Of a DNA stretch of 64,000 nucleotides, positions 60,677 through 64,000 are shown piece after piece (the first letter of the stretch is position 1; each line of letters begins with the position of its first letter). The position numbers and the translations under genes are program-made. The DNA comes from Trichocoleus desertorum NBK24 (GTDB lineage Bacteria; Cyanobacteriota; Cyanobacteriia; FACHB-46): the NCBI RefSeq assembly GCF_030409055.1, contig NZ_CP116619.1:4007628-4071627 (forward strand), in the 5' to 3' direction. The notes below the pieces were generated by a model. It saw only the letters and a list, made by a program, of their open reading frames with translations. It did not search any database and was not told the origin of the DNA.

Positions 60677-61666
60677 ATGGCTACTACAGCTTGGACTCGC
60701 CGTCACGTCATTTCTTTAATGGATTTTGTTCCCGCAGAGTACGACACAGTCTTACAAACTGCTGCCAGTTTTCGAGAGGTCTTATCTCGGCGAACTAAGA
60801 AAGTCCCCACGCTTCAGGGACAGGTGGTTGCAAATCTATTTTTTGAGCCTTCCACCCGCACTCGTAGCAGTTTTGAGCTGGCTGCCAAACGTTTATCTGC
60901 TGATACTCTTAATTTTACTCCGGGAAATTCTTCTTTAACAAAAGGAGAGACGATTCTCGATACGGCCAAAACCTACTTGGCAATGGGTACCGATTTAATG
61001 GTGATTCGTCATCAGCAGGCAGGAGTACCCCAAGCGATCGCGGATGAGATGGATCGTTTAGCTTCTCTGGTCGGCGTGCTGAATGCGGGAGATGGACAAC
61101 ACGAACATCCCTCCCAAGCCTTGCTTGATCTATTTACAATTTGTACGCTGCTTGATCCAGAACGACCCCGATTAGATTTACTCGTTGGCAAGAAAATCGC
61201 GATCGTCGGAGATATTTTGCATTCACGGGTGGCGCGATCGAATATTTGGAGCTTGACCGCTAGTGGTGCAGAAGTGCATTTGGCTGGGCCTCCCACGCTT
61301 TTGCCCCAACTGTTTGCTGACTGTGGTAAAGATCGAGCGGGTAAGCTATTTTTGCACTGGAACTTAGAGCCAGCCTTGCAAGATGCAGATTTTGTTATGA
61401 CGCTGCGGTTGCAAAAAGAACGCATGACCCAGCATTTATTGCCCAGCTTGCGCGAGTACCATCAACAATTTGGTATCACCCGCGATCGCCTCAAACTCTG
61501 CAAGCCAAATGTCAAGGTGCTCCATCCTGGCCCGGTGAACCGGGGTGTAGAGATTAGTTCTGACCTCATGGACGACCCAGAGTTCAGCTTGATTTCGCAG
61601 CAAGTCACCAGTGGCGTTGCGGTTCGCATGGCTTTACTGTATCTAATGGGCAGTGGCAAAGCTTAA
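60677..61666 (+). CDS. pyrB: Aspartate carbamoyltransferase catalytic subunit
   Basis: Condenses carbamoyl phosphate and aspartate in pyrimidine synthesis; 329 residues. Carbamoyl-phosphate site [26 protein letters not shown] and [11 protein letters not shown] are all present. Lys of [12 protein letters not shown] matches the 80s loop. The frame is open to a TTG at 60644, but the ATG at 60677 gives the usual cyanobacterial length. No regulatory pyrI follows, as is normal for cyanobacteria. Confidence 0.94.
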
Positions 61667-61792: not shown

Positions 61793-62287
61793 ATGGATGC
61801 CGCTGCCACCTTAGCTATCTCTACCCCAACTTCCGTGGACACACGGGACAGTTTCGCCATGACGTTCGCGCCGTTATCGCTGGATGAGGTGTATCGGTTA
61901 GCGAACGATGCCGCCAATGGAGCGATCGTGGTCATGAGTGGCACGGTGCGGAACCAAACTGATGGCAAGCCTGTGGTGGCCCTAGAGTACCAAGCCTATG
62001 AACCAATGGCGCTGCGGGTTTTTCAGCAAATTGCGGCAGAAATTCGCCAACAATGGCCCGACGTACAACGAGTCGTAATTCATCACCGCACCGGACGTTT
62101 AGCGATCGGGGAGATTAGTGTACTAGTGGCAGTCGGTTGCCCCCACCGCTCAGAAGCTTTTGCTGCTTGCCAGTACGCGATCGACACCTTGAAACACAAC
62201 GCCCCCATCTGGAAAAAGGAGCATTGGGCCGATGGTTCTAGCAGTTGGGTCAGTATTGGTGCTTGTGAACAGTCTGAAGGGAATTGA
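61793..62287 (+). CDS. moaE: Molybdopterin synthase catalytic subunit
   Basis: Encodes 164 residues. MoaE motifs GAIVVMSGTVRNQTDGKPVV, LEYQAYEPMA, IHHRTGRLAIGEISVLVAV, and HRSEAFAACQYAIDTLKHNAPIWKKE with the catalytic lysines are intact. It transfers sulfur to precursor Z together with MoaD, for the molybdenum cofactor of nitrate reductase and similar enzymes. A 22-residue variable N terminus precedes the core; an ATG at 61859 is an alternative start. Last HIP1-bearing core gene before the AT-rich right edge. Confidence 0.93.
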   Translation: MDAAATLAISTPTSVDTRDSFAMTFAPLSLDEVYRLANDAANGAIVVMSGTVRNQTDGKPVVALEYQAYEPMALRVFQQIAAEIRQQWPDVQRVVIHHRTGRLAIGEISVLVAVGCPHRSEAFAACQYAIDTLKHNAPIWKKEHWADGSSSWVSIGACEQSEGN

Positions 62288-62696
62288 TAAGATCCCTGAA
62301 ATTATTGCTTATGCAACCCTGCATCATGCGAACAGACAGAAAATTCTGCTTAGTCTTATCTGTTAGCTAAGAATAACTTTCAAGTGGGATAACTCTGAAT
62401 TAAGGCTAGAATCTACTGGAGATTTCAGTCATCTTTGCTTGTATTTTGCCAAACATTATATTATGGATTTGATGCATTTGCACTGAGAAATCGTCTTATA
62501 CAATTGACAGGTTGGAAGGCAAAAGATAAATGGAGATTTGCTGTCTATCTAGCTCCAAGCAGCCATTACGTATCCTAATCTAAGCACCATCTTCTGAGAT
62601 GACAAAGCGAAATACTTCATGCATCCTCCACAAAAACATCAATGAATTGAATGTGGCAAATAATTTTTTGACAACAACTACCTCGAAGAAATTACT
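62288..62696. other. 409-bp AT-rich gap marking a composition boundary
   Basis: No gene recognised. A promoter-like TTGACA at 62504-62509 has TAAATG 17 bases downstream. From here to the window end there is no GCGATCGC site and the DNA is visibly AT-rich, unlike everything to the left. This suggests the junction with acquired DNA lies between moaE and 62,697. Confidence 0.5.
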
Positions 62697-64000
62697 GTGA
62701 TATTACATGATGCTATATTGCAAGTTTTGCGTGAGACAGAAAGACCTTTGTCTACACGTGAAATAGCAGATTATCTCAACCGAACGGGTCTGTATACTAG
62801 GGAAGATGGAACCCCTGTTGACAAAGAGCATATTCGACTTCACGTAATAAAACGCTCTGATATATTTGATAATCTTAACGGAAAAGTTGTTCTAACTTCT
62901 GACACGGGTTGGAAAAGCCTGTTAACTGCCTATTGGCAACTTTTTGATGTTCTTCGAAACTATTTCAGCCAGTCTGACCTACAATTTACGCTCGCTTCTT
63001 TGCTATTTTTGAAGCGAGCTTACGACATGAATAGCTTTGAATCAACATATCCAATACACAATGTTCCGAATCTATTTTCTGATCAACACACTGCATATGC
63101 TGAGAGATTAGTTCAAGAATTAGAGGATCTTGATAGACCTAATAATTCTCCTAGTATTTTTTCTGATTGTGCTCAACTACTGAAACGGCTTAATCAAGAA
63201 GCAAGAAAAACAATTCTTAGTGTTCTTGAGAGATTCGATACATCTAAGTATAGCGAAGAAGATTTTGGACCCATATTTGATTATTTTTTACACCAAATAT
63301 CTATAGAATTTTCAAATTCAACGACACCTTACACACCTAAGTATTTACAAAACCTTATGGTGGCTATTTTAGCTCCTGAGGCGGGTAAAAGACTTTATGA
63401 TCCTACATGTGGTTCAGGCGGTCTATTGATTGAGGCGCTAAGAGCTGTTGAGGGTAAACTAGATGCAAAAGGAACTGAAATAAATCACAGAATGGTCCAG
63501 TTTGGCTATATGAATCTGGTCATGAACGGTTTTTTTAATGTAGATTTAAGGACCACAGACTTTTTGGAGGAACTACATAGTAAAAGAACATACGACTATA
63601 TCATAGGAGATTTACCTTTAAACAGTGCCTACAAGCCAGATAGATATTATGACTTGTTTTATAAATGGGGAATGCAATCCCCAAAATCCGGAAAAGGATA
63701 TAGTGCCCCTGTACTTTTTGTGCTATCTAAAATGGCAGAAGATGGCAGGGCTGTTATTACAGTTTCTGAAAATTTATTGTTCAAAGGAGGTAAGGAAAAA
63801 GAGACTAGAGAATTATTAGTCCAGCAAGACATACTGGAGTGTGTAATCAGTTTACCTCAGGGGGCATTAAAACCTTATACTGATGCTAAATGTTCAATAT
63901 TAGTACTTAACAATAGAAAGCCACTAGAGCTTAAAAATAAAATTAAATTCATAGAAAGTACACTAACTTACAGTAATTCTAAGTCAATAGATGTAGATGC
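62697..64000 (+). CDS. HARE-HTH-like plus N6-adenine-methylase-fold protein (3' truncated by window edge)
   Basis: Open frame of 434 codons from a GTG at 62697 to the edge; an in-frame stop at 62661 limits the start. Residues 1-75 (ILHDAILQVLRETERPLSTR, EIADYLNRTGLY) form a winged-helix domain like HARE-HTH. A helical linker follows (about 75-210). From about 212 comes a type I HsdM-like methylase domain: TPKYLQNLMVAILAP, motif I DPTCGSGG at 235-242, and then GRAVITVSENLLFKGG. Motif IV, usually (N/D)PP(F/Y), reads Asp-Leu-Pro-Leu at 305-308, so methyl transfer is doubtful. No specificity or nuclease domain is visible before the edge. Probably part of a defence or restriction-related locus. 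Confidence 0.8.
   Translation, partial: MILHDAILQVLRETERPLSTREIADYLNRTGLYTREDGTPVDKEHIRLHVIKRSDIFDNLNGKVVLTSDTGWKSLLTAYWQLFDVLRNYFSQSDLQFTLASLLFLKRAYDMNSFESTYPIHNVPNLFSDQHTAYAERLVQELEDLDRPNNSPSIFSDCAQLLKRLNQEARKTILSVLERFDTSKYSEEDFGPIFDYFLHQISIEFSNSTTPYTPKYLQNLMVAILAPEAGKRLYDPTCGSGGLLIEALRAVEGKLDAKGTEINHRMVQFGYMNLVMNGFFNVDLRTTDFLEELHSKRTYDYIIGDLPLNSAYKPDRYYDLFYKWGMQSPKSGKGYSAPVLFVLSKMAEDGRAVITVSENLLFKGGKEKETRELLVQQDILECVISLPQGALKPYTDAKCSILVLNNRKPLELKNKIKFIESTLTYSNSKSIDVD

Follow-up and report, generated by a model that had tools for sequence, protein, structure and literature searches.

Two-component-like gene pairs linked to R-M are known as HEF_HK and Response_reg_2 (PF19191 and PF19192; PMC8011034). 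The family to which our cyanobacterial locus belongs resembles them in several respects: a soluble GHKL kinase-like gene stands beside a divergent receiver gene, the pairs occur in R-M neighbourhoods, and a two-component system is predicted. HEF_HK/Response_reg_2 pairs, however, mostly accompany type II R-M systems with C5 methylases, and their kinase is not fused to a methylase, whereas the cyanobacterial sensor (P0001) contains a methylase and a TRD within the kinase chain. Neither P0001 nor its partner regulator (P0002) matches PF19191 or PF19192 at E values up to 10, and the families listed for the relatives at E up to 1 include neither profile. Identity with HEF_HK/Response_reg_2 was therefore rejected for lack of a domain match. 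The divergence described for Response_reg_2 from Response_reg (PF00072) resembles that of P0002, which has no PF00072 match at E up to 10, its relatives having none at E up to 1.

The sensor is also similar to HsdM and HsdS, with which it shares an N6_Mtase domain and a Methylase_S TRD. In contrast to the type I proteins, it combines the M and S parts in a single chain, has lost motif IV, carries an additional histidine kinase and is not accompanied by hsdR. The preliminary description had tied the novelty of the locus to the genes downstream; on reading that DNA, we found neither hsdS nor hsdR beside the pair, the next gene being the response regulator, followed by native DNA. An ordinary hsdM of a type I operon was rejected because no hsdS/hsdR follows. 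MADS shows some similarity: the methylase part has Mad2 as its best PADLOC match, and the TRD is matched by Mad5. The NCBIfam scores (30.7 bits against a cut-off of 720 for Mad2, 28.3 against 400 for Mad5) fall far below the cut-offs and no other mad genes lie beside the two-gene locus, so MADS was rejected as well.

Detocs is a defence two-component system with a histidine kinase, a response regulator and a nucleosidase effector. The P0001/P0002 pair likewise consists of a histidine kinase and a response regulator, the components that Detocs uses in phage defence; the Detocs sensor is different, however, and its nucleosidase effector has no counterpart here. Since neither P0002 nor any relative contains a nucleosidase domain, we rejected Detocs; for BREX, the membership test failed or was not applicable. 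Receiver domains are also found in type III CRISPR loci, in Cam2 and other proteins (PMC11229360), much as in one of our relatives, L043. Cam2, however, is a membrane protein and lacks a partner kinase; in L043 the kinase and regulator genes are neighbours. PMC13092281 lists a predicted system of HATPase and REC, too briefly for comparison, and in the open-licence papers searched we found no description of a methylase–kinase fusion.

The features by which we assigned membership (an N6_Mtase domain, a HATPase_c domain, a phospho-acceptor histidine in a DHp helix pair and a receiver fold) are present in the cyanobacterial pair. We give a probability of roughly 55% to the reading that the two genes form a cytosolic two-component system of defence type, in which a methylase that no longer methylates would serve as a sensor of DNA or of the restriction state.

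The AT-rich insert at the right edge of the window

The window, that is, the whole stretch of DNA analysed, covers 64 kb (G000:C1:4007628-4071627) of a cyanobacterial chromosome that is complete at 5.46 Mb. We read the chromosome on beyond its right edge as L004, whose positions equal window positions minus 61372. The features discussed below are:

61793..62287, + strand: moaE, native, to the left of the insert
62288..64000, no strand: left part of the AT-rich, HIP1-free insert, which has a total length of about 4.4 kb and reaches to about L004:5296, beyond the window
62697..64000, + strand: 5' part of the sensor gene (P0001), GTG start; the full gene is L004:1325-4132, 935 aa
62697..62816, + strand: HARE-HTH-like wHTH (residues 1-40), scoring under the curated threshold
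63255..64000, + strand: N6_Mtase (HsdM-like) domain (residues 187-476), of which the window contains only the first part
63399..63422, + strand: motif I, DPTCGSGG (SAM-binding loop), residues 235-242
63609..63620, + strand: motif IV, DLPL rather than (N/D)PP(F/Y/W), residues 305-308
L004:4125-5000: response regulator gene (P0002), 291 aa, overlapping the sensor stop by 8 nt
L004:5297-5376 (window-equivalent 66669-66748): imperfect 80-bp copy of the moaE 3' end, 81% identical to 62207-62286

After the end of moaE (62287), the GC content falls from about 50% to 35%, and the insert as a whole stands at 35.0% compared with 50.6% in the remaining window, in agreement with the sharp change of composition reported in the preliminary description. 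The same description had reported that the HIP1 palindrome (GCGATCGC) disappears at this edge. The window contains 125 copies of HIP1, where dinucleotide shuffles predict 0.87; all copies lie within positions 1-61489, the final one at 61482, and to this extent the observation stands. The HIP1-free 2.5-kb window end is not unusual on its own, however, two other gaps in the window being equally long (2,877 and 2,516 bp), and we dropped it as stand-alone evidence. Only the full gap in the chromosome is unusual: it measures 5,403 bp, and 0.007 such gaps are expected among 148. Beyond the regulator gene, HIP1-rich native DNA is reached again, together with trm1.

The last 80 bp of moaE (62207-62286, corresponding to L004:835-914) recur at the far end of the insert, which suggests that recombination placed the insert at the 3' end of moaE. 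Both 80-bp copies are translatable as peptide, and the repeat at the insert ends is a possible integration site. No integrase gene is present in the insert. We compared the region to those of two genomes of the same genus (L048 and L049), in both of which pyrB, moaE and trm1 occur in the same order and the sensor–regulator pair is absent at moaE–trm1. The interval is variable within the genus, with Uma2 in one congener and Uma2 plus transporter-like genes in the other. Judged by its sequence, the two-gene locus is an acquired insert.

Domain build and signalling residues of the pair

The window ends within the sensor gene, whose stop codon lies a further 1,504 bp on. The complete protein has the domain order HARE-HTH-like, N6_Mtase, Methylase_S TRD, DHp and HATPase_c. 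The GTG start is backed by the relative L035, whose protein opens MTLHEAIETVLREN where the sensor opens MILHDAILQVLRET, and which likewise has a HARE-HTH-like start. The coupling of a HARE-HTH-like N terminus to an HsdM-like fold, proposed from the window sequence, was reproduced for the methylase (N6_Mtase, E = 8e-37 for the window ORF; PF02384, E = 1.4e-38 for the full protein), whereas the HARE-HTH score of the window ORF (24.3 bits) lies just under the curated cut-off of 25.9. The methylase fold matches HsdM and PacII MTases, including DNA-bound MTases, and its best solved relatives are HsdM structures; the full sensor has no match to HsdM_N (PF12161). The Methylase_S TRD (residues 489-657) follows in the same chain as the methylase. 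The HATPase_c domain (residues 820-929) scores 27.8 bits with PF02518, against a cut-off of 26.4. The AlphaFold model of the sensor shows two long helices, 674-712 and 744-769, the first of which holds His690; the CA fold comes after them. Every one of the 15 kinases has this phospho-acceptor histidine, and all relatives retain the N box and the G2 box. The G1 box reads NxG instead of the usual DxG.

The regulator has the receiver residues E8/D9, D54, T91 and K112, and among family regulators D9, D54 and K112 are invariant. Its AlphaFold model (mean pLDDT 86.6) consists of a receiver followed by four helices and matches solved receivers with TM scores, by target, of 0.7-0.8; a profile of the regulator family also finds receivers in the PDB. 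The four output helices span residues 154-168, 173-197, 240-257 and 269-290. R184 and E188 in the second of them are invariant, and H258 at the end of the third is nearly so. The HEPN layout is a four-helix bundle with an acidic residue in helix 2 and a histidine ending helix 3 (PMC3710099). The output domain matches no family, the arginine of the HEPN Rx4-6H motif is missing in most family members, and hhalign of the output domain to DUF4145-bearing HsdR N termini gave a P value of 0.43, which is not significant. We did not accept an assignment to DUF4145/HEPN, the residues being suggestive but the profile similarity not significant; that the output acts as an RNase is a guess. The regulators of L010, L013, L036 and L037 have an extra C-terminal tail of about 80 aa, described as OB/cold-shock-like from one weak Pfam match (S1CSD-TOTE-2), which is missing in the cyanobacterial clade.

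Kinase and regulator genes are adjacent in each of the 12 loci read out, and the main groups of the kinase tree are also those of the regulator tree. At the sequence level, it is well supported that the two genes are a co-inherited signalling pair, and we infer phosphotransfer from His690 to Asp54.

One could argue that the locus is decaying or a mere passenger, a fragment of a transferred R-M island that no longer works in the cyanobacterium. This would agree with its single occurrence (the pair is found in none other of 390 sampled Cyanobacteriia genomes), with the lack of an effector gene and with the variability of the site in the genus. Yet both of its genes, which make up the entire locus and include no nuclease gene, are intact and retain all signalling residues, the nearest relative found being 40-48% identical, so that we regard loss of function as improbable.

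Methylase motifs and a proposed sensing model

The cyanobacterial-type clade comprises P0001, L035, L039 and L044 (tree support 100/100), and the overall identity of the clade kinases to P0001 is 29-41%. The motifs read from the window were as first described: a perfect motif I and, in place of a standard motif IV, DLPL. Motif I is perfect across the clade. Aligning motif IV across homologues, as had been suggested, gave DLP in all four clade members ([AG]DLP[LSI]); the first proline and the aromatic residue are missing, and the flanking residues are conserved. In the R-M-linked relatives, motif I is lost (NPFAGLAS and similar), and motif IV ranges from NPPF, NPPL and NPPW, near normal in some, to unrecognisable. 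The complete standard motif set occurs in no family member, and we therefore argue that the methylase serves as a sensor. From the aligned motifs, catalysis appears not to have been lost by one single route across the family.

The preliminary description had proposed a methylase-fold sensor that does not methylate. The TRD, kinase and regulator found past the window edge fit a sensor, and the altered motif IV suggests that P0001 no longer methylates adenine. Some methylases tolerate unusual residues in motif IV, so inactivity is not proven. P0001 could instead be an orphan adenine methyltransferase that is fused but still active, its activity being regulated by phosphorylation via the accessory kinase. 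The intact SAM-binding motif of the clade and the match to folds of DNA-bound MTases would be expected of such an enzyme. We nevertheless give this idea little credence: none of the four clade members has the first proline and the aromatic residue of motif IV, and the R-M-linked relatives are without motif I yet have an intact hsdM next door.

In true HsdS proteins, the TRD is the most variable part. In the clade, it is the best-conserved domain, with a mean pairwise identity of 40% compared with 36% for the CA domain; the HsdS proteins neighbouring the relatives have a mean pairwise identity of 21%. This conservation suggests that what the TRD binds is constant, and not a target sequence that changes.

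In the mechanism we propose, the sensor would be a type I methylase module, formed by an HsdM-like part and one HsdS-type TRD, that has lost the residues for holding the flipped adenine and become joined to a kinase. The methylase/TRD clamp would most likely scan DNA, or a DNA-bound or DNA-mimicking ligand, with DNA as the probable ligand. Recognition would rearrange the kinase dimer and switch it on. The kinase would then phosphorylate its own His690, and the phosphoryl group would pass from there to Asp54 of the partner regulator. The four-helix, HEPN-like output would act in turn, either as a growth-arresting effector or as a switch of a partner restriction system. Because the cyanobacterial pair stands alone, its regulator is likely to be the effector itself or to act in trans.

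Relatives and their neighbourhoods

A tblastn search on plasmids returned one full-length relative, on a Myroides plasmid, with a receiver gene and an entire type I operon downstream, and a genome scan added a further locus of the same build in Flavobacteriaceae. By regulator-profile search, the family is present in 13 of 395 Bacteroidota genomes (about 3%); the Bacteroidota listing holds 15 genomes, two of which, with weak partial matches, were left out of this count. Nine weak cyanobacterial matches, as well as 13 weak matches in 398 genomes of the Acinetobacter phylum, were confined to the receiver or its fragments, and none was accepted. A phage or viral origin was rejected, since no relative was found in the viral contigs scanned and phage records gave ordinary methylases only. 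L012, L014 and L015 from the genome scan proved to be ordinary hsdM or generic kinases. The multiple alignment showed a TRD-like stretch in the L043 kinase, but profile comparison did not bear it out, aligning only the CA domain of this kinase.

Judged by inspection of the loci, the neighbourhood associations are strong, though they come without a P value. In nine loci (L010, L011, L013, L033, L034, L036, L037, L040 and L042), the pair is followed by both hsdM (with NPPF or NPPY) and hsdS, while either hsdR or GmrSD genes are mostly in reach and a WYL regulator is often upstream; in L038, WYL and hsdR genes lie beside the pair. L035 has a NACHT NTPase gene upstream, the neighbours in L041 include OLD-like AAA, PLD-like and UvrD-like genes, and in L043 the pair is part of a type III-A CRISPR operon, with csm5 on one side and a Csx1-like CARF gene on the other. 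In L044 (L044:1-6686, G683:C5), McrB-like and McrC genes follow the pair, and the regulator output is SLFN_AlbA_2 instead of the helical domain. By analogy, this would be an effector swap typical of defence systems, and L044 is a possible kinase-controlled type IV restriction system.

The defence role suggested at the outset is supported by the neighbourhoods of the homologues, where restriction, McrBC, NACHT and CRISPR genes occur; the cyanobacterial locus itself has two genes only. Since the relatives adjoin known anti-phage systems, the pair is probably a little-known DNA alarm, its role in defence being argued by analogy. More tentatively, and with slightly less than even odds, the relatives may make up an undescribed two-component family in which a dead methyltransferase/TRD sensor with swappable outputs (HEPN-like or Schlafen AlbA_2) is plugged into type I R-M, McrBC, NACHT and type III CRISPR systems as a shared alarm for DNA or infection. 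Two-component systems mostly respond to chemical or physical cues, and restriction is commonly regarded as working without signalling. If the proposal is true, a methylase/TRD clamp as input would couple DNA recognition straight to phosphorelay signalling and would offer a way for the rest of the cell to learn whether DNA is present at a restriction enzyme, or what state it is in.

Most Bacteroidota pairs are embedded between a WYL regulator and hsdM/hsdS/hsdR, and type I methylases naturally distinguish hemimethylated from unmethylated DNA. Both points would suit a sensor that reads the type I restriction state or the host methylome and tunes restriction, rather than detecting phage directly: the inactive methylase would compete for, or sense, unmethylated or hemimethylated sites, leading to alleviation or derepression. 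Such a role is less likely to account for the pair, as hsdM, hsdS and hsdR are absent from the operons of the cyanobacterial, L035, L039 and L044 copies, L043 lies in a CRISPR operon, and the TRD is not variable in the manner of HsdS. Moreover, the only other type I system seen in the cyanobacterial chromosome has a transposase-broken hsdM. A defence-type two-component system with a non-methylating sensor remains our preferred reading.

The order of genes in L044 is methylase-kinase, SLFN_AlbA_2 regulator, McrB-like and McrC. The L043 operon (L043:605-12188, G460:C124) contains Csm1/Cas10, small and RAMP-like genes and the Csx1-like CARF gene; the N terminus of its histidine kinase is unrecognised, and its response regulator belongs to the family. 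The other type I R-M locus of the cyanobacterial chromosome (hsdR, hsdM and hsdS) is located at L076:4096-11782 (G000:C1, about 970-978 kb), where a DDE transposase gene on the opposite strand splits hsdM.
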